Of a stretch of 64,000 nucleotides of DNA, positions 23,772 to 58,783 are shown in pieces. The DNA is from Thozetella sp. PMI_491. Its lineage: Eukaryota > Ascomycota > Sordariomycetes > Chaetosphaeriales > Chaetosphaeriaceae. Position 1 is the first letter of the stretch. Each line of letters starts with the position of its first letter. Both the position numbers and the translations under genes were made by a program. Under the pieces are notes generated by a model. The model searched no databases, was not told where the DNA came from, and worked only from the letters and a program-made list of their open reading frames with translations. The stretch covers positions 1,302,001 through 1,366,000 of the forward strand of contig MU270022.1 in the NCBI GenBank assembly GCA_021432635.1, read 5' to 3'.

Positions 23772-26052
23772 TTTGTCTTTCCGTTCGACGATCGTTCCAG
23801 ACGACCGGACTTGTTCTTTGTTTTTGTTGGAGTGTATTGTTTCTTGTAAAAATGTGCGGGGTGAACGACCGACTTCCGGGTACTTTTGACGCCCGAAGTG
23901 CCGCGCAAGCTACCCCGGCCACTAGCCACGCTATAAAACAACAAAAGGAGACTGCTAGGCCTTCTGGGTACGCATACGCGAAGCGACCAGGCGGCACAGG
24001 CTTACACGTGGGGAAGGAGTGGAAGAATTGGGCGCTATTCCGAACGAGTGTACAAACGAGAGCAGCAGGACCTCATAGCAGTCCACAGTACATGGTTTTA
24101 TTGCCTCCACAAAGACCGAAGATGGCCTATGAACCTGAAGTGTCTTCTTTTCTCCAGCCAAATAAAACAGAGGTGGCTGTCGATCTTGCCCCACCGCCAC
24201 ACTTCGAGTCTATGCCACTCTCGGAAGAAGCTGGAACGCGTCGGCTGCACCATCGAGGGAATCCAAGACCGAGTGTGGACCCTTGTCACTCACTAGTGTG
24301 CCATCACCCCAGCCCGCAGCGGGGGCGGGCAGTGTTCTCCCTCGCTCACCTCTGAGACAGGCGATGTGGCATTACATCATCAAGCAGAGAGGTTTTTCTA
24401 GCCATTGTTGGGCCATGCATTCAATATGCACGACATATGCAGTGGAAACCTAGCCGATGAGAATAGTCGAAGACAAGACGAATGGTCGGAGACAAGACGA
24501 ACGACGGGTACCTCGCAATCTCTACAGGTCGGGGATCGTAATCCACCCGGCTGTCGGCACGAGGTTTTATTGGCGCAAAGCAAATATGCCACAAGCGCCT
24601 CACGGTCGTAGGGACGAAGTATACAGATAGTGCTCAACAATTGCTTGAGGGTAGCTAAGCCTACAACCTCTGCTGCAAAGGGATAGCTACAACCATCGCC
24701 CTAGGTCGTTCGCAACAGGACCTAAACCGCTTCAAGGGGACTCTCCTACCGACTGCCCCGTAGCGAGTGTATACAAATTTAAATACTCCCCATCGTGATA
24801 CAACCGTCCGCGAAAATGCCATAGCATGCAATTGGGCTCCGCCTGGAGCAGATTGAAGCTGGTATCGGCTCGCCTATCCTCGCTGTAATGTCATCTCGGT
24901 AGATTTATGGTGAGAGGACCAGTAAGACAAAACAATCCCCGTTGGCAAGCTCGGGCAGACCCAGTTCCATCGCGGGCGACCACACCGGTACACGACAGAG
25001 GTCAACCCAACTGCGACTGCAAGACGATGTCAGGGGGTTGGTTCTTGTTTAGAATACTAGTCGGCGGGAAATAATTTGGTCGTTGGTGGCAAAGACTTTG
25101 GTGCGGGGGATTCCACCTTCGTTTGGCGGCGGACACACCTTCCAGCCGGACACAAGAAAAGCCACGACGTCTATGATTGTGTGTTACACCAGACTAAGCT
25201 TATATTCATGCCACTTCTTTGCTGCTGTGTCCCCCACACGCTATTCAACCAGTAAAACCGGGGTAATGCGCCAAGCGAGCACCAATTGCACTGTATCCGC
25301 TTCCCAAGTGCCAGGGCCGCGGAGGCAGTCAACGGGAACGGCTCGACGTCGCTAGTCGCTAGCCATAAAAAGTCTCTCCATGTGGTCCTTGATATTCTCA
25401 GTCACCGGACTTGCATCTGCTGTATGCAGCATTCTCTTGGGACCTACCTAATTAGTCAGCGCTGCCTTGCTGGTTCCGTACTCACCCGAGTCTATTAAGA
25501 AAAAAGAGCGATAGTAAAGAACTAAGCCACCATTAGGCTCTGCTGTAGTGCATATGCCAACAGTGCAACGGCCCCGGGAGCCAAGCATTCGGGTACGGCT
25601 CAAGATCATTGGGCACCGAGATTGCCCTCCTGACTAGATGGTCAGTCGGGCTATCCAACCACCGTGCAGCAGCCTCGTTCCGTCATAACCGGGCCTAGCA
25701 TACGCTCGCTACGGGCCGATGATACGCAGAATCTACCTCTCTTGGCCCGTTTTCTCCACAGATTAGGGCCATGAACAACCAACTCGTGTGGGGCGGAGCA
25801 GCACGTATTTCCGCATTATCCCATACCTAGCCTTGGCAAGTTGGCGGGGCCAGGCCAAGCTTCTTGGGTCGATCCTTCAGAGGCTCTACCTCAATTTCTT
25901 CTTCTTGCACAGTTTCTCCCCGGCTTTTTAACCAGACACATCCCCCACCACAGCCTCGTCCCGTGCAACCTGGAGTACCGGCTTCTTTGATGCGCTAACC
26001 ACCGAGGCCACACCCACTCTCTCCCTCCCCTCCACCCAACCTCTGCGAGCAC
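23772..26052. other. Long divergent intergenic region
   Basis: About 2.3 kb between the CoA-ligase gene (minus) and the CorA-like gene (plus). No supported gene. Contains the 19-base tandem duplication at 24466-24503. Confidence 0.4.
24466..24503. repeat. 19-base tandem duplication
   Basis: GTCGAAGACAAGACGAATG is followed directly by GTCGGAGACAAGACGAACG, two mismatches in 19 positions. Likely a chance slippage duplication in intergenic DNA. Confidence 0.7.
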
Positions 26053-30785: not shown

Positions 30786-31817
30786 CTAAGTTCTTTCTCT
30801 CGAACGGAACTCCGGGTCAGTCGGAAGCATCCTAGAATAACTCCAGTCTTCGATAGAACTCCACTTCACACAAACTGACGTAGCTTTAGATCTTGTTACT
30901 GGCCTCAGCGCTTTATCATCATCCCACACAAATGAGTCGATGCCAGTATTGCCGTAGCACATAATAGTCAGGCGGAGTGCCTCGAGACAATGGTCTAGCA
31001 AAAGCCAGGTTTAGTGACTTTCGCTTCACCGTGGAGTGTGAAACTATTCATACCTAGGTGCCCGCGCATCTCGCGTTCCTGGCCATCCGTGAGATTTGGA
31101 TAATATATGTCTCGATAAAGATGAAGCCTTATTTGGCGCTGTATCTGTGTGAGTAACCATATCTCGGAGAAAGAATATCTATAGAGGAGAGTAGGTACTA
31201 GACAATGAAGTTCATGGTAGACACTAAGGCCGGCGGGATACCCGCCATCAGCCAGCTCAGCCAAGTCTGTCAGAGACTCTCCCGCCATCTTAAGCTCCTC
31301 GAGCGTAACTTTGAAGGTAGATGCTATATTTGACCTAGCTGTCAATATAAAGATAGCCAAGAACGAAACTAAATGAGAGAGGGCTGATCAACGTACGTCG
31401 TACCAGTCTATCCCAAGCTTCATTTTGTTCCGCGGTGGGGAGGCCAGCATATTCGCTATGTTGGTGCCCGAATGAAGCTGCGTTCCTTATTTCGTATTCG
31501 ATGAATGTAGAAACAGGAGCTCAGAGTATATTAGCAATGCCCTCTTATGGTATATGTTGTCTATCCGTACACCATGACTGCCCAGGGATAGTCGCTCGAC
31601 ATATAGCCGTCGTATCCATGCGCCAAAGGAGGACCAGTAATAATAATACCACCACATGAAGAACTGAAAGATATGCCAGCACCAACGTGGATGCTTTCGG
31701 AAAATAGACAATGGGCTTTGGTGAGGAGACCTGTTCGCCATCTGCAAGATATGTCAGCTTATAGTAACCACATTTCCCCGAGGCTTTGCTTCTCAATTCC
31801 CGGATAGGGCATTCCAT
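30786..31817 (-). CDS. UstYa-type oxidase (DUF3328), copy 1, canonical
   Basis: Five exons, 31571-31817, 31397-31519, 31199-31338, 31054-31138 and 30786-30994, give 267 aa. A cytosolic N-terminus is followed by one membrane helix (about 45-64) and then the family pattern SWSPV...FIEYEIRN, HSEYAGLPTAEQNEAWDRLV, VTLEEL and the two HxxHC boxes: HELHC (165-169) and DHCLEALR (199-206) preceded by His196. The Cys/Trp C-terminal part (VCVKWSSIEDW) is also typical. UstYa proteins catalyse oxidative cyclisation, hydroxylation or chlorination in ustiloxin-, asperipin- and cyclochlorotine-type pathways. The fourth exon could start at either of two nearby AG sites; I chose the one giving HCLRQIRLHLYRD. 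Confidence 0.88.
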
Positions 31818-32303
31818 CCTAAAGTGATATACAAGTAACCACAGAGACAGTGATATGGCAGGATATGGCAGATAAAGGTGACGAAAAGGCAAGAAATGTT
31901 ATATATTCCTCGACTTTGGAGTTTTAATACCCCGCAACAGTAAATTCCCGTGCGGAATAGTTCCTCGGGAGCTAGATCTAGCAACAGCTCCTAAAATAGC
32001 ATCCTGGGTCGAAAATGGTTAATATAGCGATACCTGCACCCTGGTTCAAGACCCCTGGTTTTGAACTGGGCCGCGAGGCACGGCAGCGGCGCACAATAGC
32101 GCCACAAACTTCATACAATATATGAATATGCGGTCCTTTAGATATGGACATGGTGATTAAAACGCCCGGGAAATATCCCTTGGCGCTTTTTTCGGCAAAG
32201 CTCGAAGACATGAAGGTATATAAAGGCGTCGTGTGGACTTCATAGTGGCATTCTTTCTTGGCAGAACCTAGCCATTATTCCCGCAAAGAAGTCGAGGATC
32301 AAG
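31818..32303. promoter_or_regulatory. Divergent promoter between UstYa copy 1 and a small secreted protein
   Basis: The two genes diverge across 486 bases. A TATA box (TATATAAAG, 32217-32225) lies 79 bases before the plus-strand start. A minus-strand open frame inside (31978-32211) has no family resemblance and was not called. Confidence 0.55.
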
Positions 32304-32781
32304 ATGCATTTCAGCGAACTTTTTGCCACTTTCGTTGCTCTTGTAGGGCCACTAATGGTTTTCTCTTTACCAACTGGTAAGAAGTGTTCCTAGATTATGA
32401 ACTATATACTCAAGGGGCTAATTTTGCAAGGCGGTATCAATGTGTCAGTTGTTCCTGGAGACGACAAGGGTCTTAGCATCCTTGAGAAACAACAACAGCC
32501 CGCGGCGTGCGCTGGGTCCAATAGGCCAGCTGCCAGCGGCGTCGGTGTGGAGGTTTGCATGTGGTTCTGAACGCATAGCGTACCTATCCACTTCTATTAA
32601 AGTTTTGAGGATTTCTAGTTGCGCATGATTTGTCTCGGTGCAGGAGGAGCAATATGGGAATGAAACTCGAAATCCTGGGACAGCTTCCTGTTCGCTTTCT
32701 GATCTGCTCCCAGTACAGCTTTCGGAAGAGCGAGTGTATTTCTGTACGCAAAAGCCTAAGACGACAATCAATAATATCTAG
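32304..32781 (+). CDS. Putative small secreted protein inside the UstYa locus
   Basis: Three proposed exons, 32304-32376, 32431-32552 and 32644-32781, give 110 aa. Exon 1 encodes a signal peptide (MHFSELFATFVALVGPLMVF). After splicing at GTAAGA the protein continues LPTGGINVSVVPG, later PAACAGSNRPAASGVG, and exon 3 adds SCSLSDLLPVQLSEERVYFC. Three cysteines in the mature part. The second intron has a less common GTTTGC donor, and the first an AAG acceptor, so boundaries are moderate in certainty. No dibasic (Lys-Arg) sites or internal repeats of the kind seen in dikaritin precursors. It shares a promoter region with UstYa copy 1. No family recognised. Confidence 0.6.
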
Positions 32782-33475
32782 TCCTTGTCAACAGATTGAT
32801 ATTGTAGCCAACCAAAACTCCCTCGACGTGATTTTAGGATGGGAAATCGGATAAGCATATCGCGCAAGTGCCGAACGCTTCTGTAAGGACCTTGTATCCG
32901 TTGGTCGAAGCGGTAGGTTGAATAGAATACTCACCTGACGATTAGGCACTCCGTACTCGTGTGTTCCTTCCTAGGAAAGGTACTTTGTTGCGCGGCTGGG
33001 GAGGATGTGTCTGGGCCCTGAGACGCGGGTCAGTCATCTTAGCATCGGTTCCTCGAGCTACGCAAAGCTGCTGCAGAAAAATACCGTGATATTATGCTAA
33101 ATAGAGGACCCGCCGCAGGTCTCTTGTTGGTTCTGCATAGAAAACGATGGGCGCACTCCAGGTGGCGGACAGGGGGTTACCTCTGTCGTGTTACCTGTTG
33201 GTTTTATGTCGACACGATGCGCGATTTCCGCCGGAATTGCCCTGAGGCGAAGTACCCTCAATTCTTTTCATAAGCTATCGGGCCAAGGCGTCTGCCGATT
33301 TCCCCTGGTCACGTTAAAGGCGCCCAGCTACCATCATATATTAGCGCAAATGGCTTAGCCATGTCCAAGGCTCTTCTTACCACTGTACTTTGCTCTCTCA
33401 ATTATTAGCAGCGGTTTGTAGCTTCCTTAAGCTGGCGATCACTGGCCAACGCTACTGCTTGCGAGGCGATTCTGC
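32782..33475. other. Intergenic, no gene seen
   Basis: Between two plus-strand genes of the UstYa locus. No supported coding region. Confidence 0.45.
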
Positions 33476-34693
33476 ATGTCTCTCACAATGCCCACCCATC
33501 AGGAATACTATCAAACACCGGGTCACATCGTAGCCGCGGCGATTGCGCTCCCTGTGGCTGATAGTGTTGCCGTACTGCTTCGGTTCTTGGCACGTAGAAG
33601 ACTGAGGCAGCCGCTCAAAGTAGACGATTGGCTTATGCTACCTGCGTCCGTAGGTTTTTCTATTTCGCTTCTTGTTCAACCCAATCCACACACTTACACG
33701 GATGTAAAGCTGTTGACTGCAGGACTGGGGGCTGCTCTAGTTTATAGCGTAGTAAAGCGTACACTTGGGTATCCTCTCATACCGGATGATTTACACGATG
33801 ACCCGTTTAAAATACTCAACGAGAAAACAAATGTGGCCGGGAAGGTAAGTGGGCTGCCGTCTCTGCTCTTTTTGGTGTGACTGACCAGATCCAGGTCCAA
33901 TTTGCTTCCGTTCTGATACTTCCCTTGGCACTGGGACTGATCAAGCTGAGCGTGCTTTTCTTCTACATGCGAATTTTCACCGTGACTGCCACTAGCATCA
34001 CGTACAAGCTACTCGTTGCACTTAATGTGCTAGTTTCTATGTGGGCAGTCGGCTTTTTCTTGGCGAATCTGTTTCAGTGCAGACTGGACACATGGGCCAT
34101 GTGGACTACGACCAAGGATCTTCAGATGCACTGCCCTGGGAGCATGTATTACAGTCTTGCTTTGGGCATCACGGATTTTTCCGCAGACCTGATTATTATC
34201 TGCATACCAATTGTTCCAGTGAGTGTTCTCCATACGAAGCGAATAGTATTAAGCTAAACTTCTAGGTTTGGCGTCTCAGCTTGCAAATAACAGCTAAGGC
34301 TGCTGCTACCGGTGTTTTTCTACTAGGCGCTGTGTAAGTTTTGATATATCAAGACTTATGTATTGAACTATTACTAAGGGTCTGACATTTGCATTGTAGG
34401 GCGGTTGTGGCTAGTTTGCTGCGACTAGTCGTGACCGCTAGACTTACGGCAGGTGGCTTTGACACTCGCGAAGACGGAATGCGTATGATCTGAACTTCCA
34501 GCCTCCGTAATAAATGCTGACAAGATGGACTATAGTCATTGTGTCGGGATTCATCTACTGGGGTATGATTGAATGCGGCGTTGCTATATTTGCTGCCTGC
34601 CTGCCAGTCGCTCAATACTTAGTTCGAAGGGGTCTTTCGACCTCCGGGACATCTGACCAGAGACTCAAAACCGAGCCGAGTCAAGAGATCTAA
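33476..34693 (+). CDS. Pth11/rhodopsin-like fungal integral membrane protein
   Basis: Five exons, 33476-33844, 33895-34218, 34266-34333, 34400-34482 and 34536-34693, give 333 aa. Membrane segments include GHIVAAAIALPVADSVAVLL, VQFASVLILPLALGLIKLSV, LLVALNVLVSMWAVGFFLAN, a segment around YYSLALGITDFSADLIIICI and VVASLLRLVV. Family landmarks are RRRLRQPLKVDDWLML after TM1 and KLSVLFFYMRIF after TM3. These are 7-TM proteins (rhodopsin-domain family, related to Pth11) of unknown or receptor-like function, and they are common neighbours of UstYa genes. The stretch at about 33650-33710 could be an extra intron (GTAGGT donor). A second ATG lies four codons in. Confidence 0.8.
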
Positions 34694-35526
34694 GATTGAT
34701 AGCATGTGTAATAAAGCCTTGAGATTACTGCAATGCTAGAAAGATTATCCATAGCTGTGTCGCGAGGACAATAGTGACAAAGGGGAATTCCTTCGTGATT
34801 ATGCATCTAGGTTGGGAAAAGAATGACCGTGAGTGCATGGTACTTTTAGATGTTGAAGAGGTCGTGCAGCGAGATAGATGTTACCCTTGTAGTTTGGATC
34901 CTCGGAGTCTGGGAGAAAGGTCACACGGTCTGTCCGTAAGATCCTATCCCTTACCCGACTCGGAGATAAGAGACAAATATGACGAAGTAGAGTCTGTTCG
35001 TGCTGAATATGTGCCTCTAGCTATTTTTACCGTGCCCAGCAGTGTGCAGGCACGGATGAGCCAACTGTACCGTCAAACTTCTATTGGGGTAATAACATTT
35101 AGTTGGAAGGACCCCAGCAAGCCGCTAATGATGATCGCATCACTTCTAATTAAACATGCCAGGTCCTTTGTCCCGGATAAATAGCCCGGCGGACTTCCTC
35201 CAGCGCACAGCCTCTTCCTTGACTCACCAACTGCATAATGTTGGGAGAATATGAGATCGGTATAAATTGTGGTTAGATCAAATTGTTATATGACCCTGGA
35301 GATAAGTTCAAGCAATGAGAGATACGAATGGCACCCGTCGGTGGTGCTTATAGAAGAAACCAGTGGGTTTCGTTTTTCCCTAACCCAAACCACAGTTGGC
35401 AGTCTCTGCGACCGGGCATTCGCTTCGCTTCTTGACCAGCTTCTATTCCACCACCTAATATATACTCTTATTACCTTGAACCAGGCCAAATCTAGCAGTG
35501 CGAACTGCAGCTAATCAACCAGCAGA
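34694..35526. other. Intergenic, no supported gene
   Basis: A long open frame at 34774-35184 begins at GTG, not ATG, and shows no domain, so it is not called. A TATA-like CTAATATATACTC at about 35455 lies some 70 bases before the monooxygenase start. Confidence 0.4.
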
Positions 35527-36878
35527 ATGGAGCCTGTTAATGTTCGCGTCGCTATTGTTGGAGGTGGTCTCGCGGGAGCGAGTCTCGCGAATGCCCTGGT
35601 TCAGCTTCCAGGCTTTGAGGTGCATGTGTTCGAGTCTGCTCCTGAATTCTCAGAGCGGGGTGCTTCTGTCGGACTTTCCGCCAAAACACAAGTCGCTATG
35701 CAGCAGATCATCCCGTCAACACCAGATCTGCTTAAGAGGGCTGGAGGGGTAACACAGGAGAAAAGCCGTATTCTCATGGTGAGTGCACAAAATAAAAACA
35801 CATCAACTCGGGTAGCGATCCTGAAGCTATATAGGGCTCGGGACCAGATGTGGGAGCTATTGTCGTCGAGATGGACGGTTCGGGCCAGATCAGCGTCCAC
35901 CGCGCATCGCTTCTTCGCGAGCTTCTTGCTCCGCTGCCGGAGGAGGTCCTACATGCCAATAAGCAGCTTAAAACCATCCAGAAACGGAATAACGGTAAAA
36001 TTGAGCTAAGATTTCAAGATGATGATGTCCAGCTCTTCGACGTCGTTATCGGTGCAGACGGAGTGTATAGCACCGTTCGCCATTACGTCCTTCAAGACAG
36101 TGACGGCCAATACCTACCGACCCCTGCTGGATTCTGGGACTGCCGGGTCATGACATCGATCGATAAAGCCAAGGCTGCTCTGGACAGCAAGTACCTAGAA
36201 GAAGGACATATGTACAGCTGGCTTGGAGAAGGGGCCTTTCTCCTCTACGGCACTGTTGGCCCGGTCGCTCAGTTCATCATCTCTGGCACTGAGAACGACC
36301 CACCGAAAGATCGAAAACGCCCCCTAGATCGGGACTATTTAAACAAGGCACTAGAAGGTTGGCTAGATGGGCCTATTGCCCCTAGCATAATCGATGTACG
36401 TCTTCTAAATTCTCCGCCTCGGACCGGCTAACTGAATATCTTGTAGTTGATTCTCGACCAACCCAACCCCTATAGCTACTCCCAATGGGAGCACAAGACC
36501 ACCCCAACCTACTCTAGAGGCAGAGTCTGCATCATAGGCGACGCTGCTCACGCAACATCTCCTTGGCAGGCTGCTGGGGTAGGGCAAGCAGTGGAAGACG
36601 TCCTGATTCTGAAGACGCTTCTGGAAACAGTCACATCGTTGGACGACATTGAGGCTGCGCTCAAGTCGTATGATGCTGTTAGGCGGCCTAGATGCCATCG
36701 TGTTATTGATTCTAGCAGGGGCACTGGTAATATCTGCTGTGGGCTGGTCCCCGAGGTCGGTCTGGATCCCAACAAGCTGAAGGCAGCGTTATTGCCGAGA
36801 TGGGACTTCATTTTCAGCCTCGACTTTGATGCGTACAAGCAAGAAGCTCTTGAGAAAATGAAGGAGTTTCAGAGGTAG
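35527..36878 (+). CDS. FAD-dependent monooxygenase (salicylate hydroxylase-like)
   Basis: Three exons, 35527-35778, 35835-36395 and 36447-36878, give 414 aa. The Rossmann fingerprint is VAIVGGGLAGASLANAL at the N-terminus, followed by FESAPEFSERGASVGLS. VHRASLLREL and DVVIGADGVYSTVRH (the DG motif) and IIGDAAHATSPWQAAGVGQA (the GD motif) complete the class A flavoprotein hydroxylase pattern. Such enzymes hydroxylate or epoxidise aromatic and other small molecules with NAD(P)H and O2. It sits in the centre of the UstYa group on the same strand as the Pth11-like gene, so a tailoring role in the putative pathway is likely but inferred. No membrane anchor. Confidence 0.93.
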
Positions 36879-37122
36879 CACAATTGAGACTGACAGATTT
36901 ATGCTGGCAGATTTACGGTTGAACTTTGCTTCTTGTGACGGGAAACAGGCAATCCACTAGCCTCTGCCATAGCCATACCATATATAGCTGAACACATCCC
37001 CCACCCTTTTAAAAATTAAAAAACATTTATTCTACTACCAAACAATATACAATACAACACAGTAGCTAAAATAAACATCTGACTATATACACAATTACTA
37101 GCCTTAAGGTAATTCTATATAA

Positions 37123-37903
37123 TTACATATCTGTAACTTGAAATAATGCAGAGCTAAGTGCTGCTCCCTGACTTGTAACGATCGCATCACGTGAAGAAGT
37201 CTTCAAGAAGGCCTCTGCACAATGATCTACATGATGAATTCCGGAATACCGTGGTTCCATAATCGTCCTCGTTAACGAAAGTCGGATCTGCTTTTTCCAA
37301 TAGAATACGCAATGAATGATATGCCACCGTCTTGTGGTGAAATACAGGGTGTCAGGTACGTCTGCCAAAGCACCAAGTTCACTGACATCATATGTCTTAT
37401 TACCATGCATGTCGGCATAGTATACCCAAGCTCCATCTGAGCCTAAACCAGCTTGATCAAACTCGTTCTCGAGTTCCACGTCTCTGCAGGCCGGAGGCAG
37501 CCAAGCCGCAGCAAGAGGAACATATTCGCAACCCATCGCCAAGGCTTCAGTCGTCGAATTCCCACAATCACAAATTTGGTTGTCCCGCTGTGTCGGTACC
37601 TGCGCCTTCAAATGACGAAGTCTCAGGCTTGCGTCAAAAGCCCCATATATTGCGAAGCACAAGACAGTAACCTTGACTGCCCAGCTCACGAGCCGCGGCA
37701 GAAAATTTAATGCGCGTCGCAGTGGTGTGCTAGTAGCATTGACACTTCTTGGAACATGTTCTTGTGATATGTTGCTATCAATTGATCTCCTCTGCTCCTG
37801 AGAGCTGATAAGACTTTGTGATGAGTGGTCAATTTCCGTCCTAGAAGTCGATTAATTATCGACAAGCACTGTTAGAGCTTGGGCGGACAGCCTACCACTT
37901 CAT
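37123..37903 (-). CDS. UstYa-related protein, copy 2, CGxS / HxIHC type
   Basis: Two exons: 37896-37903 (8 nt, M-K-W start) and 37123-37840, giving 241 aa. The tiny first exon is proposed because no ATG otherwise precedes the long hydrophilic N-terminus; donor GTAGGC, acceptor CTAG. One membrane helix (VSWAVKVTVLCFAIYGAF) is followed by CDCGNSTTEALAMGCEYVPL, WLPPACRDVELENEF and the paired HxxHC boxes HIIHCVFYWKKQIR and HVDHCAEAF. This branch of the UstYa superfamily differs from the canonical one by its CGxSxxEAxxxGC start after the helix. Copy 4 is its paralogue. Enzymatic role unproven; a type II membrane topology is expected. Confidence 0.82.
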
Positions 37904-38146
37904 TTTGGACACCCGATGGAGCACATGTGGTGTTCTCGGGTACTGCATATGTAGCGACGGTCAGTTAGTTAATGCCGCGAACAGGATTAGATATAAGATT
38001 TCTTCAAACGTGGTTTCGTCCGTGGAGCTGCACCCTTCAAAGCGCTGTAAGCTCACTGCAACCTTGTACGGGATACGGATTTAGGTTAAGGACCCCAGTC
38101 ACGTATTCCGCCGAGCAGGGGTCTGACAATGATACTTTACCCCGCG

Positions 38147-38384
38147 AGCCACGTCAAAATAATACCTTATATGGGGTGTTTGAGTGCAACCTAAGTAAGC
38201 CTTCGCAAAAGCTTGCAAAATAGGGGAATTATCATACCCCTTTCTGGGTATCTAGCTCGCACTAAAGCCACATCAAAATAATGCCTTATAGGGGGTGTTT
38301 GCCTGCAACCCACGTAAGCCTTCGCAAAAGCTTGCAAAATAAGGGAATTATTATCTGCCATTCTAGGTATCTAGCTCGCACTAA
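38147..38384. repeat. 119-base tandem repeat, two copies
   Basis: Copy 1 at 38147-38265 and copy 2 at 38266-38384, head to tail. Shared blocks include GCCTTCGCAAAAGCTTGCAA and TATCTAGCTCGCACTAA at each end. The copies differ at roughly a tenth to a seventh of positions. They fill the space between UstYa copies 2 and 3. No coding potential. Relation to a mobile element is possible; the block CTTCGCAAA recurs in the tandem repeat near 43.4 kb. Confidence 0.85.
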
Positions 38385-38482
38385 TCACCTGCTTTGTGTT
38401 ATGCTTGTATCCGAGACTAGTTTCTATTTCTACGCCCATTTGCCTCACCTATAGTCTAATTAATGCCCAGCTGGCATGCCAA

Positions 38483-39437
38483 CTAAGGTAACTTTTCGCC
38501 GGTCGTATTTCGCTTCTCTGCCCAATCATGTATTGCTGCCCAATCCCGGCACTGGTGTACTGTCTCGTAATTATCTATGAATTCTGTCTGAGCCATCCCG
38601 TTGTCAAGTGGTCGGAAGAGAATTGGTTGGAGGCTTCCTTGGCACATAAAAACCTGCCTCATTATGTCAATGCAGTGATCTAAGCTTGTTAGCATAAAAC
38701 AAACAGAGAGGGAAATTTAAAACCCGAATTTTGTCTCGTTGTGCTTACCTAAATGGTATTTTATCCCCATCGGCATAGCAGTAAAGCCTTCCCACAAGTG
38801 CTCTCTTATCATCTTCTACCGAGAGTGTCATTATCCTCCTTAGCAAACTTTCAAAATCCCAATTCTACTCACCAGGCAATGCAGATGGTGAAAGACCTCC
38901 GGCATGACGACAAAATGTCCCGGCTGCCGCATATCCGGGGCAGTGCCTTCTGGGATACGTGATGCCTCTGCCCCTGTAATGCTAACCAAACCCACTGAGA
39001 AAGAGTCAACATGCTTCCTATTCGTCAAGTGAGGTGATTTACCATCAACCAACGACTCCCATAGCCGACCGCTTCCTAGAGCAGGTTTTCCGAACCACTG
39101 TTTCGTCTCGTTGTCTCTTTGTCGGAAACGGACGTCTGTATAGACAATCACACTTCCAATGTCATCGTATATCGCTGGAATAGCCAAGTTAGAAAGTAGA
39201 TTCGGGCTATAGTAGCGGGATCAAAACACCTTCAGACGGTCGAATATACTGGAAATTTCCCTGTTTCTGCGAGAAAAGGCAATATGAAAGAAGGAATATT
39301 AATATTGCACAGAAACCATGAATGACCCAATGCCATGATTTAAACGAGGATAGAAATCTTGGTGCAGAAAATTTCGAGTGCCCTGAATCGGTTCTCTCTG
39401 CAATTGTTTCTGGCAGCTTCGTATATGCATAGGTCAT
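38483..39437 (-). CDS. UstYa-type oxidase (DUF3328), copy 3, canonical
   Basis: Four exons, 39230-39437, 38873-39174, 38749-38815 and 38483-38679, give 257 aa. The N-terminus MTYAYTKLPETIAE is family-like, followed by a membrane helix (HWVIHGFCAILIFLLSYCLF), AIYDDIGSVIVYTDVRF, LWESLVDG, HHLHCL (first HxxHC box) and HLDHCIDIMRQ (second box), then QCRDWAAIHDWAEKR. The third exon supplies KMIREHLWEGFTAMP between the boxes. Every junction has a GT donor and AG acceptor with a branch site (TTCTAAC, AATGACAC, GCTAAC). Expected function as for copy 1: copper- or heme-independent oxidation in peptide tailoring, by family only. An upstream ATG adds 15 residues but is less likely. Confidence 0.87.
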
Positions 39438-40003
39438 CTCGATGCCGAAAAGACGGGTCGGTACAGTCGAGAATATCATCAAGATGGCTGGTATGGAACG
39501 GGGTTACAGGCCGGGTGGAAGGGTGCGACGGCCACGACAGTGAGAAGGTCACTAGGGGCCCGGCGAGGTGTGTTAGGCCAAATTCGAACACTGATTCCGG
39601 GGAATTAAGGGACTGTTCTAAGGGGTCGGTTGGTTGGGTACTTATACGCTCAGTGCTGCGGCCATGTCCTCGCCCAGCTTTTTGGGCATGCCACAAGGAA
39701 TTCAGCGGGGTCCCTGGGTGGTCGAGAATTATGTGTGCTTTGCGCGCCTGAAATCGATATTCTTTTCATAAATAAAATCACTATCTATATGCAATATTGA
39801 GTAAGAGCTGACGCGGGACTCGCTTATAGGGGCTAATTACGTAGCATGCATGCAGCAGCAAATTTACAGGGTAGTCGAGGCGTCCAGCGTCTCCTCCCCT
39901 CCTGCCCGTGTCTAGGCCATATAAGATCATGGCCTCTACCCATAAAAATCCATTTTTACCGCGCCTCCCTGTTTCTTTCTCATGCTGCCAGCTCTACATT
40001 GGC
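39438..40003. promoter_or_regulatory. Divergent promoter between UstYa copies 3 and 4
   Basis: No supported gene in 566 bases. Copy 4 has an in-frame ATG further upstream (39929) that cannot be excluded. Confidence 0.45.
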
Positions 40004-40624
40004 ATGATGGAGTCAACTCGGTACGAGCATCTACCAACAACAGAAACACCGGATTTTCTGGACAATAACGGAAAACCTTCAGTTCTAAAGTCAAAACGTA
40101 CCCACACACTCGCAGCTCTAAGTACAATTACCATTGCATTGGTAATCTTTGCAGTATTATTCAGAGCTTCGTACCTGCGCAGCCCAGCCTCGGACGATAC
40201 TAAGGCCCACTATGACAACTGTGGCTCATCTTTGGAGGAGGCACATGCCCGCGGATGTCGATTCGAAATAATAATAGGCGCTTGGAATCTGCCGGAGTGC
40301 TTCGACGCCGAGCTGCAGGAAGAGTACCTTCATTATCGAAACTGGAAGTGGTATGAGGATGAGGCCATGACTCGCGAGATGCCACTGGAGGTATTGTCAA
40401 AGGGACATCACAGAAAGGCCTACTCTCCACTCGAATTCCATACTATCCATTGCATGTACGTCTGGAGAAAACAGCACCGAGCTTTTGCAGAAGGGAGAAG
40501 GATGGGGTTTGACATGCTGAGTCAAGAGCATACGGAACACTGCGCAAATGCTGTATTCGATCATGATCGACTGAACTACACAGTGATCACGACAATTTTT
40601 GATATCTGTCAATTTCCATCTTAA
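40004..40624 (+). CDS. UstYa-related protein, copy 4, CGxS / HxIHC type
   Basis: Single exon, 206 aa from the double ATG at 40004. The N-terminus MMESTRYEHLPTTE leads to a membrane helix (about 38-58). Cys73 opens the CGSSLEEAHARGC block, followed by WNLPECFDAELQEEY, HTIHC (146-150, with YVWRKQHRAF) and HTEHC (176-180). It is paralogous to copy 2, with conserved spacing, but is shorter at the N-terminus and lacks introns. In-frame codons extend upstream to 39908, including an ATG at 39929, yet that part has no family resemblance. Function as for copy 2: probable oxidase-like membrane protein of an unknown pathway. Confidence 0.83.
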   Translation: MMESTRYEHLPTTETPDFLDNNGKPSVLKSKRTHTLAALSTITIALVIFAVLFRASYLRSPASDDTKAHYDNCGSSLEEAHARGCRFEIIIGAWNLPECFDAELQEEYLHYRNWKWYEDEAMTREMPLEVLSKGHHRKAYSPLEFHTIHCMYVWRKQHRAFAEGRRMGFDMLSQEHTEHCANAVFDHDRLNYTVITTIFDICQFPS

Positions 40625-40958
40625 ATACTCTGTTCTTGCAAAAGTACTTGGAATAGCAAGACCAGCCCAACAGTAGAGTCAGGATAGATCACAATAGGGT
40701 GCTCAACTGCTGTGGACCCTTTGCATGCGATTCCTCCTTGAAGCCGTGCCAGGAATTCGGGGCGGACGCCAAAGAACCCGATGCTTTCTCATCCCACGAC
40801 TGCACTGCCGCAAATGACCTACACCTTCTTTGGACGTACCGGTTATTCGACAAAGAGGACAACTTATTAACCAACTTGTAATAAGTGGGAACTGAGGTAA
40901 TTCTTATCCGTAGCTCTTATGAGCAATCAATAATGCCCCGGTCACGTAAACACGCCAC

Positions 40959-41135
40959 AATAGTACCCGATCGGGTTTGTTTTTGCGCCTGTAACCTTCA
41001 TACGACAAGTTCAGACTGATATACGTTACAGTGCAGCAAGCTTATCAAAATAGTACCCGATCGGGTTCGTTTTTGCGACTGTAACCTTCGTACGACAAGT
41101 TCAGACTGACATATGTTCACAGTGCAGCAAGCTTG
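40959..41135. repeat. 90-base direct tandem repeat, two copies
   Basis: Copy 1 at 40959-41048 and copy 2 at 41049-41135. Both begin AATAGTACCCGATCGGGTT and end AGTGCAGCAAGCTT; they differ at a handful of positions. The CCCGATCGGG core is a 10-base palindrome. The right end reappears near 43.47 kb. Non-coding. Confidence 0.85.
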
Positions 41136-41179
41136 ATTTAGCTTCGTATACACATGCGGAGTATGCATAAGCTACTTTC

Positions 41180-41233
41180 CCGAGGGTCTGTAGGAGAGGG
41201 TCTAACGCTCACGCTCAGACCCTCGGTTAGACC
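41180..41233. repeat. Nested inverted repeat
   Basis: CCGAGGGTCTG (41180-41190) is mirrored by CAGACCCTCGG (41216-41226), and GGTCTAAC (about 41199-41206) by GTTAGACC (41226-41233). It directly follows the tandem repeat and could be the terminus of a small mobile element. Confidence 0.7.
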
Positions 41234-41376
41234 AGGCTGCATTCCCCTTCGATGACCGCGCAGCGGCTAGATTTAAACATTCTGTAACAACGTCAACGTC
41301 CCCGACCTACAACACATGGAAATGTTTTGGACGACTTTTCTTCAATTAGGTATTATTAGTGCTTGCACACACAATC

Positions 41377-42288
41377 ATGTGGCGAAATGACCGTCGGGCC
41401 TTGTACCGCCCACTGCCCAGGCCATTTGGCGCAGAGCAAAGTCGACGAGACATCTATCGGCCGATCGCTTATTTTTTGTTCATCTGTTTTATTCCCGCCA
41501 TCGTCTGGCTCTGCATACAGCAACAAAAGCTCAGTCGAATGCATTTACAACTGTATCAGAACATGTTCTCAGGTAGTAAGCTCTTGTCTACTCACACTAT
41601 TTCAATTAAGATAGTCGCACTAAGTTTCAAAGTACCTCAACAGTTGGTTACGTTTCAGCCGGAAGAGCGTTTCGTCAAATCTGATCCCCAAGATACATCG
41701 TCTCCATGGCGAGAGCTTTTCCCTCGTGAGTATTCTATCAAGTCTATATTTACAGGGAAAAAACGTTAAACGTGTTTACAGCTGCCAATGGCTTCGTGAA
41801 GATCAACAATCCCAGACTCTGGGGCCTCGATCGAGGCTATTTAGTTCCAAACTGGACCGAGACGAGTAGTGAGGGTTATTGCATATCAATGTTTCATCAA
41901 TTACATTGCTTAGTATGTCCATTGAACCTAGTCATTGATATGAGCTTATTCGTCTCAGGCCATAATTAAAACTGCTCTTTCTACAGTCAGTACTCTCTAT
42001 ACTACGAGATATCATGGGCTAATAGATCAGTCAAGCGCAGTAGTTCCCGATACCAGCCATCTTGATCATTGTATCGATTATCTTAGACAGGTTGGTTATC
42101 TTTGATAAATTTCAAGGTGTAAAGCTAAAAACTTTTAATAGGCAGTAATGTGTGCCGGCGACATGACTTTAGAGAAACCGTATTTTGACACACAATCTGA
42201 AGCCATTGCGGTAGATGGATGGGGCGAAATACATGAGTGCCGGAGCTGGACTGCGATTATGGATTTTGTAAAGACCCACAAATACTGA
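41377..42288 (+). CDS. UstYa-type oxidase (DUF3328), copy 5, canonical
   Basis: Five exons, 41377-41575, 41633-41725, 41782-41912, 41959-42090 and 42142-42288, give 233 aa. The N-terminal tail leads to a membrane helix (IYRPIAYFLFICFIPAIVWL), then QQLVTFQPEERFV, LWGLDRGYLVPNW, FHQLHCL (first HxxHC box), AIIKTALSTV, HLDHCIDYLRQAVMCAGD (second box) and HECRSWTAIMDFV. The third junction was placed at 41959 rather than at the later AG because it yields the family's HCLxxI. The first intron is optional: the region also reads through in frame. Family role as for copies 1 and 3. Flanked on both sides by related short repeats. Confidence 0.85.
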
Positions 42289-42890
42289 TGATTTATCCTT
42301 TTTACCTTGACGAACACGCGGCCCAAGCCGGTGATGGCTAATAATAGTGAAAAGGTGTTATGACAGGACCGTAGAAGTCACATCAGGCGTACTGAGCTGG
42401 CTTGTCGTACTTGACGACTACAATGGAATTGTGAGAGGTTAGATGGGAGTGAATGAGAAGTAGGCGAGCTCCATGGGTAGGAACAGATCCTTGGTTGGTC
42501 TGTCTCAATACTCCTACATGAAATCTATGTTCCGGGATTGCGGCTTCTCCTGTCACCAGAGCCCACCTGCTCAAAACTGACACTAGATGTGATGGTATTC
42601 TTCAATTGCCTAGCTGGAGTTTGCTTAAAAGAGACACGATTTCGACAGAAGAGAAAAGGGACCATTTTGCCTCGGTGCCGATACTTGTTACTCCAGTTGT
42701 TTAAGAAATGCCATCCTGTGCTTCTCCGTCATGACAACTTTCTAGCTTGACCGTCTAGCCTGTGCCTAGATGTGGCTTCTGCAAGTGTATTACCAAGAGC
42801 AGAAGGCGGCCTAAGGCTGTCCTGAGAACCTTCAAACCGTTAAAATCTTGGACATCTGACAGCCTTCTCAGACACCCGTCGACTAATCAG
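42289..42890. other. Intergenic with possible orphan exons
   Basis: On the minus strand an exon-like end (ATCTAAC branch, CCATTGTAG acceptor, then VKYDKPAQYA and stop at about 42384) might belong to the small-peptide gene to its right, but I cannot connect the frames with confidence. Confidence 0.3.
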
Positions 42891-43131
42891 TTACGAAGTG
42901 GGATCCTCAAGTCCATCCTGCTCAACTGTAAAGTGTTAACTACATTCACGATCCGACATTGTAAACTTACTAGGCGGGTTTCTAACAAATATTAGCTATG
43001 AATTTACAACAGAAGTAATTGACTCACCCTCCGACGTTGTAGAATCGGGGATCAATTTTCTCAACTGGAACGACGGCGGACAAAGCCATACCAGCAACGG
43101 CAAGTGCAGTCAAAATGCGAGAAAAATACAT
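42891..43131 (-). CDS. Very small secreted peptide; candidate RiPP precursor
   Basis: Exon 1 (43028-43131) is clear: MYFSRILTALAVAGMALSA is a strong signal peptide, followed by VVPVEKIDPRFYNVGG and a GTGAGT donor. Downstream I propose an 11-nt exon (42971-42981) and a last exon (42891-42925), giving 49 aa ending IEQDGLEDPTS. A two-exon alternative (acceptor at 42981, stop at 42936) also gives 49 aa with a different tail. The mature peptide would be about 30 residues with a Phe-Tyr-Asn-Val stretch after Arg; UstYa enzymes typically cross-link Tyr or Phe residues. There is only one possible core, unlike multi-core dikaritin precursors, and no Lys-Arg site. Not homologous to anything I know. Confidence 0.5.
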
Positions 43132-43349: not shown

Positions 43350-43465
43350 CTTCGCAAATTTCAATCTATTACAGCAAGCTTCGCAAATTTCAACCTATTC
43401 CAGCAAGCTTCGCAAATTCCAATCTATTACAGCAAGCCTCGCAAATTTCAATCTATTACAGCAAG
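43350..43465. repeat. 29-base tandem repeat, four copies
   Basis: Units at 43350-43378, 43379-43407, 43408-43436 and 43437-43465. Each starts CTTCGCAAATTTCAA (or one or two substitutions) and ends ATTACAGCAAG. It lies 220-335 bases upstream of the small-peptide start codon, within its probable promoter. Confidence 0.9.
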
Positions 43466-43540
43466 TTCCGACTGATATTACAGTGCAGTAAGCTTATGTT
43501 AACTTCGTATGTACACACGGAGTGATGCATAGTCTACGGT
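43466..43540. repeat. Dispersed copy of the 41.1 kb repeat end
   Basis: CCGACTGATATTACAGTGCAGTAAGCTT followed by ACTTCGTATGTACACACGGAGT parallels 41100-41166 (AGACTGACATATG...CAGTGCAGCAAGCTT...GCTTCGTATACACATGCGGAGT) in the same orientation, about 2.35 kb apart. Confidence 0.75.
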
Positions 43541-48097: not shown

Positions 48098-51000
48098 CTA
48101 GATCTTCTTCTCAAAGAAGGCTAGTACTTCTTTGTTTACACAAGCAGCAGCCACGTCGATTGATGTCTGCTGCATGTTGTCCTCGAGCATAGGATCGAGA
48201 CCTCGACCCATCAGGGCCTTGTATACTCGTTCATCGCCGCTCGCCGCGACATGTAGCAGCCCGCGTCCGCTGACATCCTGGGCAAAAAAGTCAGCACCCA
48301 GTTCCTCCATCAGCTGCCAGTCGCGTCTCTCCGAGAAAACCTCCGGCTCTTCATCATCGTCCCACAGACTAAACCTGAAGAATCTGTCGTCTCGCTTCGC
48401 ACGGGTACAGAAGTTGAAGAGCGGCGTCTCCCCCTTGGAGTTGCGCGCATTGATGTCCACGCCCCGGGCCACCAGGTCCTTGAAGCAGTGTCGTTGAGAC
48501 TCGGTACTGAGTCCCTTCGCTAGTAGGTGGAGTACGCTGTCGCCGTTGTTGTCGATAGCATGGGGATCGGCGCCGGTAGCTAGGAACAGCTCCGCGATCT
48601 TCGTGTCTCCATTCTTGGCTCCACGGGCTACCGCGTAGTGCAAAGGCGTGCTACCCGTGCCATCCACCTGTTGTAGGAGATGGGGAACTTTTTCAAGCAC
48701 ATATTGTAGAGAATTCTCGAAACTGCTGAACTGCATGCGCGATCCAAAATCCCCGATCATGGAATGCAAGCAATTACGCCCAAAGTTGTCCCGTGCTTCA
48801 ACGTCGGCGCCTAGGGAGAGAAGGCGCTGGAACAAGGAGAGACCCTCGGCCCCGTCTGCACTGCCTGTCTCAGAGAAGAGGGCCTTGTCCAGACATGCAT
48901 GGCCCAGACAAGCGGCAAGGAGCACAGTGCGACCCTGAGCATCTCGATGGTCGACGTCTAGACCTGGTATACGGAGGAAGCACTCAGAGAGGCGCGCGGC
49001 GAAGAACAGCTCGTGCAGTACCGTTCTCTCTCTATACCCGGGAGGTACATCGATCAAAGACTTCCCGGCCGCAGACACGAATGCTCTTTTGGTGAAATCA
49101 TTCCCGGTCGTAGTATCATCCTCCAAGTACTTTGCAAATGGGTTGGCGCCGTGATCGAGCATGACTTGTATAATTCGGTCCACAGATGCGGCATCTGGTG
49201 GAGCCTGGGAGAGCACATTCCAGGTTGATGGGTACGCCATCCCGGCCCGGTAGATAGGAAACTCCTCATGCGGATCCAAGCGCATGTGTGGAGGTCGTGC
49301 GACCTTACGGCCGCGCTTCTTGTCAACGTTGGGGTCCTCGGTCGGTCTTGGGACGCGCATATTCGCATCGGCGCCTCGGGACAGCAGCGCTCGGAGAACG
49401 TCGGTGTTCTTGGCGTCTATGGCGGCAAGCAGTGCATCGGCTGTCACGGTGGCGCCGTGGGAAATCAAGAGCCTGATCATGCTGACACTATGCTGCGCAA
49501 AAGCGAGGGAGCTCTGGCCTGCCATGTCGACCGCATTGGCATCTGCCCCTGCCGCGAGCAGCGTTCTGACCACCTCTTCGCCGTAAGGCCCGGGGCAATT
49601 GCTACTGCCTCGAAGAGCGACATGGAGCACGGTTTGGCCCTTGTAGTCTCGGATATTCGGATCGGCACCGGCCTTTAGAAGGTACGGCAGAGCTTGGCGG
49701 GCGTGCCACCAGCAGCTTGCCATGGCGACGGAGTGGAGGGCAGAGCGTTCGGGCACAATCTCGTAACCTCTGTCGATGTATTGTTGCGTGTAGTGTAACT
49801 CGTTGACGTCGACACTGAACTTTTCAACAAGCAACTTGACCATGTCCATATTTGGCAGCCTTCGCCGGACCGCCTCGATCAAGAAGGGCACGTGGTTGCT
49901 GCCGCGTTCCCTTTCCTGGCGGAGCTCCTTATTTGCACACCAAAGGCCAGCCTTTGTCTCGTCCCCGAAGGCATGCCAGTTTCCCTCCCTGAGGCTAGAT
50001 TCGGCGACAATAGAGCCTATATTCTCCACGAGCGAGGCGAAACCCTCTTTAATCAGCACTCCGAGGTTATGGCTATCAGACTTTTGGTCAACTGCCGGAA
50101 GGAAGGTAGCCCCAAGACGAGCCAGCTCTTCGATAAACTCATATTCCCTATTCACCAGATAACTGCGAAACGTGTGGTTGTTGGTGGGATTACCGGGTGC
50201 TACTGGCTCAGAGAGTTTCAATGTCGGACAAGAATTCCTCTCCTGCGTATCATCCGTGGTTCCGAATAGCCCCGGTGCATTAGAGACCTTGTGTTTCTGC
50301 TTGAACTTTCTTAGGCAGGCCGCGGTGTAGGATCTTCCGCTAGCCTCTGCTTCGGCAACGGGATCGTTACTCAATCCAGCGCCACCAAGCTGGGACACAT
50401 CGGCGCCGTGGGCAACGAGCATATCCAAGATCTCCTCGAGCCTCGTCGACTTGTTATCCCCCAAGCTGTCGTAGTTGATCTGCTCTGCATGTCGAGTGGG
50501 ACGAGATTTGTCGGCCAGCTTGACAGCAACAGCAAACCCTTCGTTACGACTGCGAGCAGGTGTCCAATTTCGGGTAATCTGGGGCCATGCTGCGTCTTCC
50601 TCCTCGAAGCCGATGCAGGCACGAAGAATCCCCCCGTCTTTAGCATCAGCACCAGCCGCCAGAAGAAGCGCTACCGTCTCCGGCCTCCCCGATTGACAGG
50701 CGTAAAAGAGTGGTGTAATATGGGCTGCCTCACCAAATGCTTTTGCATTCACTCCCACCACAGGTTTCATCGCGGAGCCTGCTTTATTCGAACTTGCAGC
50801 ATCGGTTTGCCCAGACGGAGACATGCCTTGTGTGCCCAGCGAGACCCCACTGCGCTCTCTCAGCGCATCCAGCAAGAGGCCGACGATGTTGCTCTCCCTG
50901 CAACGAACGGCAATGTGCAGAGGAGTCAATCCCTCGTATGTGACGGCTAACGGATTCGCCCCAGCTTCCAGAAGCTTCTTCACATAGTCCTCCAGCCCGG

Positions 51001-58682: not shown

Positions 58683-58783
58683 CCCTTCGCACCAACAGCT
58701 GTTTGCGATTCACCTGAGACAATCCAACTTACAATTGATTTACAACACTTATCGTGCACCTATCGGGCTCACACTACACTATC

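Follow-up and report, generated by a model that had tools for sequence, protein, structure and literature searches.

A locus in the fungus Thozetella sp. PMI_491, at positions 30786-43131 of the 64-kb window (the whole stretch of DNA analyzed) and 1,333-1,345 kb of contig C8 in the 72-Mb genome, encodes five membrane-anchored proteins with a double HxxHC motif, an FAD monooxygenase (FMO), a Pth11-like protein, and two small secreted-protein (SSP) open reading frames (ORFs). The five proteins are three UstYa proteins (A, B, and E) and two members (C and D) of a divergent HxxHC branch, referred to herein as type-2, rather than five UstYa copies, and the UstYa, type-2, and FMO subfamilies recur together across the genome. 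PF11807 and Kex2 repeats are the two marks by which genomes are mined for fungal ribosomal peptides; this locus has the former and lacks the latter. Moreover, the locus exposes a double-HxxHC branch that is mostly missed by Pfam (15/18 members unmatched at E values up to 0.1) and absent from NCBIfam. We tentatively read the locus as a dikaritin-like oxidase cluster acting on a single-core secreted peptide, for which SSP2 is the best candidate, and give this reading somewhat less than an even chance.

Gene Content of the Locus

All five double-HxxHC proteins have intact reading frames in hand-spliced or single-exon models. UstYa A (30786..31817, minus strand; 269 aa), spliced by eye with approximate exon borders, has an N-terminal transmembrane (TM) segment, the motifs HELHC and HLDHC, and a PF11807 match at E 2.6e-38. 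UstYa B (38483..39437, minus strand; 256 aa, four exons) carries HHLHC and HLDHC and matches PF11807 at E 8.5e-30, and UstYa E (41377..42288, plus strand; 252 aa, four exons) carries HQLHC and HLDHC and matches at E 6.4e-26 in its 251-aa version. Type-2 protein C (37123..37903, minus strand; 241 aa; exons 37896-37903 and 37123-37840) has a TM helix followed by HIIHC and HVDHC, and type-2 protein D (40004..40624, plus strand; single exon), encoded divergently from B, has a TM segment, HTIHC, and HTEHC. An earlier note had counted five UstYa genes; five double-HxxHC proteins are indeed present, but PF11807 is matched only by A, B, and E. Its single class A flavin monooxygenase is confirmed by a PF01494 (FAD_binding_3) match at E 6e-22 in a salicylate-hydroxylase-like protein of 414 aa (35527..36878, plus strand; exons 35527-35778, 35835-36395, and 36447-36878), as is its Pth11-like membrane protein (33476..34693, plus strand) by a Fung_rhodopsin (PF20684) match at E 1.2e-13 on the 33877-34254 frame, although the latter probably has no part in the pathway. 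SSP1 (32304..32570, plus strand; 70 aa; exons 32304-32376 and 32431-32570) is divergent from UstYa A across 486 bp (31818..32303, measured from the gene starts), and SSP2 (42891..43131, minus strand; 49 aa) is modeled with three exons (43028-43131, 42971-42981, and 42891-42925). A 119-bp tandem duplication (38147..38384; two copies, 88%) lies between B and C.

These genes might simply have crowded together by chance in a fast-evolving, AT-rich part of a genome rich in UstYa genes, with no single pathway behind them. The genome contains approximately 125 UstYa genes, obtained from 149 exon matches merged at 300 bases, a rough count because 150 of 203 candidates were scored and gene E was not among the matches listed. 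UstYa arrays are ordinary in this genome: among the matches listed, at least two UstYa genes occur at 18 of 91 places, and six at two places. Furthermore, the GC content is 0.45-0.49 in the seven 2-kb bins at 30-44 kb and at least 0.50 in 19 of the remaining 25 bins, and A, B, and E are 25-32% identical to one another. Against such crowding, 2000 random placements of 125 UstYa genes yielded at least three within 12.4 kb at any point in the genome in 51 cases and five in none, UstYa genes are paired elsewhere with type-2 genes or this FMO family, and the locus contains two pairs of divergently oriented genes as well as an upstream element common to E and SSP2. Fortuitous crowding is the least probable of the explanations considered.

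A Divergent HxxHC Branch Linked to UstYa Genes

The C and D proteins share 24% identity in alignment; neither matches PF11807 at E values up to 1 or any other Pfam or NCBIfam model. The type-2 alignment comprises 18 rows, i.e., 12 genomic copies and six of seven database proteins; P0002 (139 aa), L034, L042-L046 (broken, split, or weak), and C70 were left out. A double HxxHC is present in 18/18 rows (once with H..QC) at a motif spacing of 30-32, and in the UstYa alignment the spacing is 29-37 in eight of nine rows, the remaining row showing a single motif by the same regular expression. Type-2 proteins have their own invariant Cys/Trp pattern before the motif and terminate soon after the second motif. 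This pattern, CG...GC...WLP..C, presumably falls within IPR053008/PTHR35896 (phomopsin-biosynthesis-associated protein family), identifiers for which a literature search returned no papers. At E values up to 0.1, PF11807 matches three of the 18 proteins: L038 is barely above the cut-off (25.3 vs. 25 bits, E 1.6e-5), L037 reaches 21.5 bits over profile positions 3-173, and the third is weaker. NCBIfam matched none of the 18.

Profile comparison of type-2 with UstYa by hhalign gave a score of 42.3 (probability 76, E 2.2e-5), which was reached by none of 98 column shuffles and dropped to 15.9 once the H and C residues of the motifs were masked. In AlphaFold2 models, C (pLDDT 82) and a poorly modeled UstYa (pLDDT 57) agree in the order of their elements, and C is predicted to form helices at residues 50-84, 174-194 (motif 177-181), and 205-216 (motif 207-211), as numbered in the 242-aa frame 37126-37851. 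Judged from sequence, C and D would be distant relatives of UstYa at best.

Outside the window, 11 of 17 type-2 places have a UstYa gene no more than 5 kb away, a proximity shared by 1.45% of the genome (p ~7e-17 under uniform placement, which ignores gene density). These places are the union of two genome searches at E values up to 0.1, with two C3 genes counted separately. Corresponding proportions among the controls were 0/51 for ketoacyl synthase (KS), 1/26 for the NRPS condensation (C) domain, 2/44 for tyrosinase, and 0/7 for S41 peptidase; each C-domain, KS, and tyrosinase place was represented by one coordinate, that at C77:231000 being rounded. In this genome, type-2 genes thus adjoin UstYa genes far more often than tyrosinase or S41 peptidase genes do. 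The FAD monooxygenase, which is 57% identical to Thozetella protein P0008, follows the same trend: with exon 2 as the sole query, four of its six closest paralogues have a UstYa gene no more than 7 kb away (p 2e-6), as do four of all 21 (p 7e-4).

The most interesting part of the locus is the type-2 family, whose members may either be HxxHC oxidases of a second kind or act as UstYa partners. Specifically, type-2 proteins might form a deep HxxHC dicopper branch that works with UstYa, both being used at this locus on a single-core secreted peptide; we regard this as possible but doubtful. They would then act either as independent peptide oxidases or as electron-/copper-supplying or heterodimer partners of UstYa, and SSP2 or SSP1 would exemplify a precursor type outside the Kex2-repeat rule for mining fungal RiPPs. 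Should type-2 proteins prove to be oxidases or to assist UstYa, a model built for them would uncover clusters missed by PF11807. One such cluster may be at C18:639283, where a type-2 gene adjoins a Kex2-repeat precursor and no PF11807 match occurs within 34 kb among the matches listed.

Synthetases, Partner Genes, and Precursor Candidates

The window had previously been described as free of NRPS and PKS, which holds and extends to its surroundings. On contig C8, the NRPS C domain closest to the locus lies at C8:1070925, ~261 kb away, no ketoacyl synthase lies nearer than ~109 kb on the contig, and no synthetase was seen by eye among ORFs of 200+ aa in the 40-kb flanks on each side. Adenylation is represented in the window by a stand-alone AMP-binding protein (21915-23909), ~7 kb left of the cluster. 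These distances bear on the possibility that a non-ribosomal peptide, or some other small molecule, is made elsewhere and modified by these oxidases, in the way that DUF3328 proteins, CctR included, act on the NRPS product cyclochlorotine (PMC12435403). The AMP-binding enzyme is consistent with such a role, as are two UstYa genes at C77:223740-226215 that are separated by ~4.4 kb from condensation domains of an NRPS. The remoteness of C and KS domains from the locus and the single NRPS place among 26 within 5 kb of a UstYa gene speak against it, and we consider it improbable.

The partner genes of dikaritin pathways are likewise missing from the locus. Contig C8 has a single tyrosinase place, at 748 kb, and no S41 peptidase was found on that contig. 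Among the modeled genes of 30.8-43.1 kb there is no methyltransferase, those at 6284-7060 and 58739-59638 being at least 15 kb from the locus, and the locus has no transporter, the MFS frames at 7668-9458 and 14141-16195 being more than 14 kb away. No Kex2-repeat precursor was detected in single-exon frames of the 64-kb window and 80 kb of flanking sequence. The same scan, which covered loci L001-L047 and the window, was positive at seven of the 10 other UstYa places with ~10 kb or more examined (3-kb loci are too short to exclude a precursor), and such precursors also occur beside type-2 arrays on C3, C18, and C36. Neither the Kex2-type precursor nor the S41 peptidase that the earlier note proposed to look for was found in these searches. 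The interpretation given in that note survives in part. A synthetase-free peptide-modifying pathway is plausible because UstYa, type-2, and FMO genes recur together and precursors lie beside seven of 10 UstYa places; the step to a ribosomal precursor is unsupported because a repeat precursor, a tyrosinase, and an S41 peptidase are all missing from the locus and the SSP ORFs have no homologues elsewhere in the genome.

The two secreted ORFs of the earlier note are present and have signal-peptide-like starts but are not significant as such, since an equally crude signal-peptide filter passes 47 ATG starts over the 64 kb. SSP1 has no homologue elsewhere in its own genome or in the protein collection, and a search of the genome with SSP2 found only itself. 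SSP2 contains an aromatic segment, RFYNVGG, and no Kex2 repeats. Pairwise comparison of the regions upstream of UstYa E (40956..41175, with two 72-bp repeats, each containing the palindrome ACCCGATCGGGT) and of SSP2 revealed a common element of ~80 bp (41096-41175 and 43462..43537; 75% over 81 columns, E 3e-11). Its 15-bp core occurs four times in the genome, three of them at the locus. The second half of the element is exact at both sites and was reached by none of 100 shuffles; the first half, with three mismatches allowed, was matched as often by nine of 100 shuffles, although none of the three actual matches contains a mismatch. Relative to E and SSP2, the element runs in opposite orientations and could therefore be a duplicated fragment. 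SSP2 is the first-choice and SSP1 the second-choice precursor candidate, the best available but weak.

The locus could instead be an orphan tailoring cluster, i.e., a dikaritin oxidase set, working or decaying, whose Kex2-repeat precursor acts in trans from another genomic site or has been lost, SSP1 and SSP2 being unrelated. The weakness of the SSP evidence and the repeat precursors at seven of 10 other UstYa places, as opposed to none here, point in this direction, and the array at C1:1749-1759k is comparable, combining three UstYa genes with one type-2 gene and lacking a repeat precursor within the 10 kb examined. By contrast, our models show neither frame nor motif disrupted in any of the six enzyme genes, which argues against long decay, and precursor genes with a DUF3328 neighbor average 3.09 genes away from it in a published survey (PMC7329392). 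We consider an orphan cluster unlikely, albeit a serious competitor.

Proposed Pathway and Comparison With Known Systems

The preferred reading is a dikaritin-like oxidase cluster without a canonical precursor, tyrosinase, or S41 peptidase. In its favor are the PF11807 matches of A, B, and E, the genome-wide linkage of type-2 and FMO genes to UstYa, the repeat precursors beside other UstYa or type-2 arrays, the properties of CctR, the element common to the E and SSP2 upstream regions, and the lack of a synthetase nearby. Three UstYa and two type-2 proteins would be anchored by their N-terminal helices in a membrane of the secretory pathway, with the double-HxxHC oxidase domains probably facing the lumen. 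By analogy with CctR, these domains may bind two coppers and use O2, attacking unactivated C-H bonds in a short secreted peptide to yield hydroxylated or cross-linked products, and the FAD monooxygenase could oxidize the peptide further. The substrate would most likely be ribosomal, a single-core secreted peptide encoded at the locus rather than a Kex2-repeat protein. The missing canonical precursor and the chance-prone SSP ORFs without homologues in the genome count against a dikaritin-like assignment.

Dikaritins have been defined by five kinds of genes, namely a secreted precursor with a leader, repeated cores, and Kex2 sites, multiple DUF3328 genes, a tyrosinase, a methyltransferase, and a transporter or peptidase (PMC12048977), of which the locus has only the multiple DUF3328 genes (A, B, and E). 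In a broader definition, DUF3328 with a double HxxHC is class-defining (PMC12048977), and A, B, and E are enzymes of this kind. As in the ustiloxin, phomopsin, asperipin-2a, and victorin pathways, the locus combines several double-HxxHC DUF3328 proteins with a flavin monooxygenase and lacks a synthetase; the ustiloxin B set has two flavin monooxygenases (PMC12048977), and that of phomopsin five DUF3328 genes (PMC7329392). Unlike dikaritins, it lacks a Kex2-repeat precursor, tyrosinase, methyltransferase, and S41 peptidase, and two of its five oxidase-like proteins fall outside PF11807.

CctR, a DUF3328 hydroxylase of cyclochlorotine, is membrane-anchored, binuclear in copper, and O2-dependent, and substitution of its motif residues abolishes activity (PMC12435403). 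It resembles the predicted model of C in having a TM helix and a pair of neighboring helices that carry HxxHC(x)nHxxHC (PMC12435403), but serves an NRPS product; moreover, the disulfides of the CctR dimer lie after the second motif, where C has no cysteine and D has one. Its authors postulate an electron-/copper-supplying or heterodimer partner (PMC12435403), for which type-2 proteins would be candidates if they are oxidases or UstYa partners. With the UstYa family (PF11807), type-2 proteins have the motif pair in common, although C, D, and 13 others are unmatched at E values up to 0.1.

The DUF3328 clans R1 and R2 of lichens are likewise clusters of the UstYa type for which a repeat precursor was sought and not identified, and a single core or a precursor elsewhere has been suggested (PMC12048977). 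They differ from the locus in that R1 combines two DUF3328 genes with a tyrosinase and an O-methyltransferase and R2 has an acetyltransferase, and the available text describes no type-2 family in either (PMC12048977). Finally, among 9399 DUF3328 genes surveyed in 1461 strains, 31.8% had a repeat-precursor gene no more than 15 genes away and most did not (PMC7329392); a UstYa gene without a repeat precursor, as at this locus, is therefore not rare.

Gene content of the locus

The window (C8:1302001-1366000) belongs to a filamentous fungus with a genome of 72.3 Mb, and the locus at 30786-43131 comprises, in order, UstYa A (-), the small secreted-protein frame SSP1 (+), a Pth11-like gene (+), a class A FAD monooxygenase gene (FMO, +), C (-), UstYa B (-), D (+), UstYa E (+), and a second small secreted-protein frame, SSP2 (-). 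Exons and introns were assigned manually from the sequence, and the resulting models of C, B, E, SSP1, SSP2, and FMO were checked by script; UstYa A was spliced by eye with exon placement by alignment. None of the five HxxHC proteins (A-E) is disrupted in these models, and all of them carry a hydrophobic segment at the N terminus and a pair of HxxHC motifs. Between 30 and 44 kb, the GC content of all seven 2-kb bins is 0.45-0.49; it is at least 0.50 in 19 of the 25 remaining window bins. Two 72-bp repeats are located 5′ of UstYa E (40956-41117), each containing the 12-bp palindrome ACCCGATCGGGT, which could be a regulator binding site. A 153-codon open frame between the Pth11-like gene and FMO (34723-35181), either a candidate gene or a chance frame, has no match in a Pfam scan. 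Adjoining the cluster (48101-54597), a large ankyrin-repeat frame (48101-52909) overlaps a NACHT/NPHP3_N frame (52822-54597), and the two probably constitute an NLR-like gene.

The FMO belongs to the cluster. When its second exon was used as query and the paralogues were ranked by E-value, four of the six closest genome paralogues were within 7 kb of a UstYa gene (p 2e-6), as were 4 of the 21 places outside the locus (p 7e-4). The best database relatives are at most 57% identical, mostly sordariomycete, and many are labeled salicylate hydroxylase.

The type-2 proteins and their relation to UstYa

The standout feature of the locus is the branch represented by C and D, referred to as type-2. Five UstYa genes had been proposed in the earlier note; this holds for A, B, and E, which match PF11807 (UstYa/DUF3328) in the Pfam scan with E-values of 2.6e-38, 8.5e-30, and 6.4e-26, and fails for C and D, which have no match in either Pfam or NCBIfam and are 24% identical to each other in alignment. 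Genome searches with C and D yielded 19 places combined at E ≤0.1, including C and D themselves. Outside the window, 11 of the 17 places are within 5 kb of a PF11807 match, at distances of 338-4114 bases; such proximity covers 1.45% of the genome, giving a binomial p of 7e-17 if placement along the genome is assumed to be uniform. Controls within 5 kb of UstYa numbered 0/51 for ketoacyl-synthase, 1/26 for NRPS condensation, 2/44 for tyrosinase, and 0/7 for S41 peptidase places. Among the more distant type-2 places, C20:593292, C6:726824, and C87:228051 are weak or broken-looking, C8:382210 has a stop within the match, and the remaining two are C16:1205698 and C18:639283.

Twelve genomic copies were aligned with six database proteins, whose named sources are Aspergillus ibericus, Apodospora peruviana, and a Caloplaca MAG. 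C96, G97, A103, C108, W117, C122, and W142 are invariant in this alignment, as are the motif residues H177, H180, C181, H207, and C211 (numbered as in the 242-aa frame of C), and the two HxxHC motifs are spaced by 30-32 residues in 18/18 sequences. No published description of the branch was found in a literature search that reached few subscription papers; it may, however, already be covered by an InterPro family named "phomopsin biosynthesis associated protein".

In single-protein scans, 3 of the 18 type-2 proteins match PF11807 at E ≤0.1, that of locus L038 barely exceeding the curated cut-off (25.3 vs 25 bits) and that of L037 remaining under it (21.5 bits, covering profile positions 3-173), and none of the 18 matches any NCBIfam model. 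Comparison of the type-2 profile with a profile of nine UstYa proteins gave a probability of 76 and an E-value of 2.2e-5; the score exceeds 98/98 column shuffles, but collapses once the motif His and Cys are masked. For C, AlphaFold2 produced a good model (pLDDT 82), with a long helix (50-84) followed by a small domain in which a strand precedes a helix with motif 1 (174-194) and a helix with motif 2 (205-216), and then by a strand; the order of elements around the motifs agrees with that in a poor UstYa model (pLDDT 57). A sequence search for solved structures found no relative, and a fold search found no convincing match. These results support a common active-site design of type-2 and UstYa and make shared descent likely, C and D being too distant for the Pfam model.

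DUF3328 was described in 2025 as a membrane-anchored binuclear copper enzyme family; CctR has two coppers per monomer, uses O2, requires electrons, carries its motifs on two adjacent helices, and loses activity upon changes to motif residues, and its authors postulate an accessory protein supplying electrons or Cu(I) (PMC12435403). Owing to family membership, A, B, and E should act as CctR-like binuclear copper oxidases. C and D share the CctR motif pair on neighboring predicted helices, which makes them possible CctR-type oxidases or, alternatively, a partner.

Synthetases and candidate precursors

The absence of an NRPS or PKS, as claimed earlier, is borne out by contig domain searches, flanking frames, and window scans. 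The nearest condensation domain and ketoacyl-synthase on the contig are ~261 kb and ~109 kb from the locus, with none closer; the flanking 40 kb to the left and right, where frames of at least 200 residues were read by eye, include no synthetase, and two scans, of ten and of four window frames, yielded none and one stand-alone AMP-binding enzyme. The candidate RiPP locus of the earlier note is real as an oxidase cluster, and the pathway class that it proposed is plausible.

Precursors were sought as repeats with dibasic sites. Kex2-repeat frames adjoin UstYa at C5, C36 (two places), C2 (two places), C30 (two genes), C20, and C3, and a type-2 gene at C18. The repeat frame itself has a signal-peptide-like start at one C36 place, one C30 gene, C3, and C18; the remaining frames start elsewhere or are truncated, either by an intron or at the end of the locus. 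At loci L003 and L007, repeats appeared in the first of two scans only. Among the 11 UstYa places scanned with at least ~10 kb of sequence (C1:1749k, C2:1464k, C3:1025k, C5, C8:1272k, C20:380k, C30, C36:593k, C36:625k, C36:651k, and this locus), seven have a repeat precursor, and the dibasic-repeat scan found none at C1, C8:1272k, C36:625k, or this locus. The scan therefore works in this genome, and for the Kex2-type precursor that the earlier note proposed to search for, the present locus is negative. Such absence near UstYa is not rare in itself. In a survey of 1461 strains, 31.8% of 9399 DUF3328 genes have a repeat-precursor gene no more than 15 genes away, the close ones at a mean distance of 3.09 genes (PMC7329392), and UstYa clusters with no recognizable precursor are interpreted, in another study, as having a single-core or displaced precursor (PMC12048977).

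SSP1 (70 aa, two exons) and SSP2 (49 aa, three exons, good splice signals) both have a signal-peptide-like start, and neither has relatives elsewhere in the genome. A crude signal-peptide filter passes 47 ATG starts in the window, i.e., 46 besides the SSP2 first exon; the SSP1 first exon (29 aa) is below its 30-aa floor, and spliced SSP1 passes. An element 5′ of E recurs 5′ of SSP2 with 75% identity over 81 columns (E 3e-11, two-region comparison), and of the four occurrences of its 15-base core in 72 Mb, three are within the locus. The two sites match exactly in its second half, with 0/100 shuffles yielding an equal match count. Against SSP2, the first half of the element is unremarkable by match count at three mismatches, and the orientation of the element is reversed relative to SSP2. 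SSP1 and UstYa A have a common 486-bp intergenic region. The shared element would favor SSP2 as the precursor and the common intergenic region SSP1; neither is proof.

Comparable loci and known cluster types

The genome is dikaritin-rich: some 125 UstYa genes are spread over 91 places, several of which are arrays of 4-6 genes, and many come with Kex2-repeat precursors. At C18:639283 (L045), an apparently intron-split type-2 gene adjoins a Kex2-repeat precursor in which EPFTGIKR occurs five times, and no UstYa is present within 34 kb among the matches listed; this is possibly a RiPP cluster that would escape mining by PF11807. On C36, a type-2 gene is ~2 kb from a repeat precursor. C1:1749001-1759000 (L027), with three UstYa genes, one type-2 gene that shares 39% identity with C, and no repeat precursor in the 10 kb scanned, is a sister-looking array of this locus. 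At C77:223740-259771, two UstYa genes and a very large NRPS region, ~4.4 kb apart, possibly form a cyclochlorotine-like NRPS/UstYa cluster, and the proximity of UstYa to tyrosinase (within 5 kb) at C38:411322-413274 and C43:586578-591949 resembles ustiloxin-type clusters. The set at C3:1027417-1040044 (L036, L039, L047) is textbook dikaritin-like: a repeat precursor (core around TGIYWGKV) is accompanied by UstYa and two type-2 genes, and an S41 peptidase follows after 6-7 kb. The present locus differs from a textbook dikaritin cluster in having no repeat precursor. By the older five-gene definition (repeat precursor, multiple DUF3328, tyrosinase, methyltransferase, and transporter/peptidase; PMC12048977), it is not a dikaritin cluster, multiple DUF3328 genes being the only one of the five marks found; the broad definition fits it as far as the enzymes go, with a putative peptide product.
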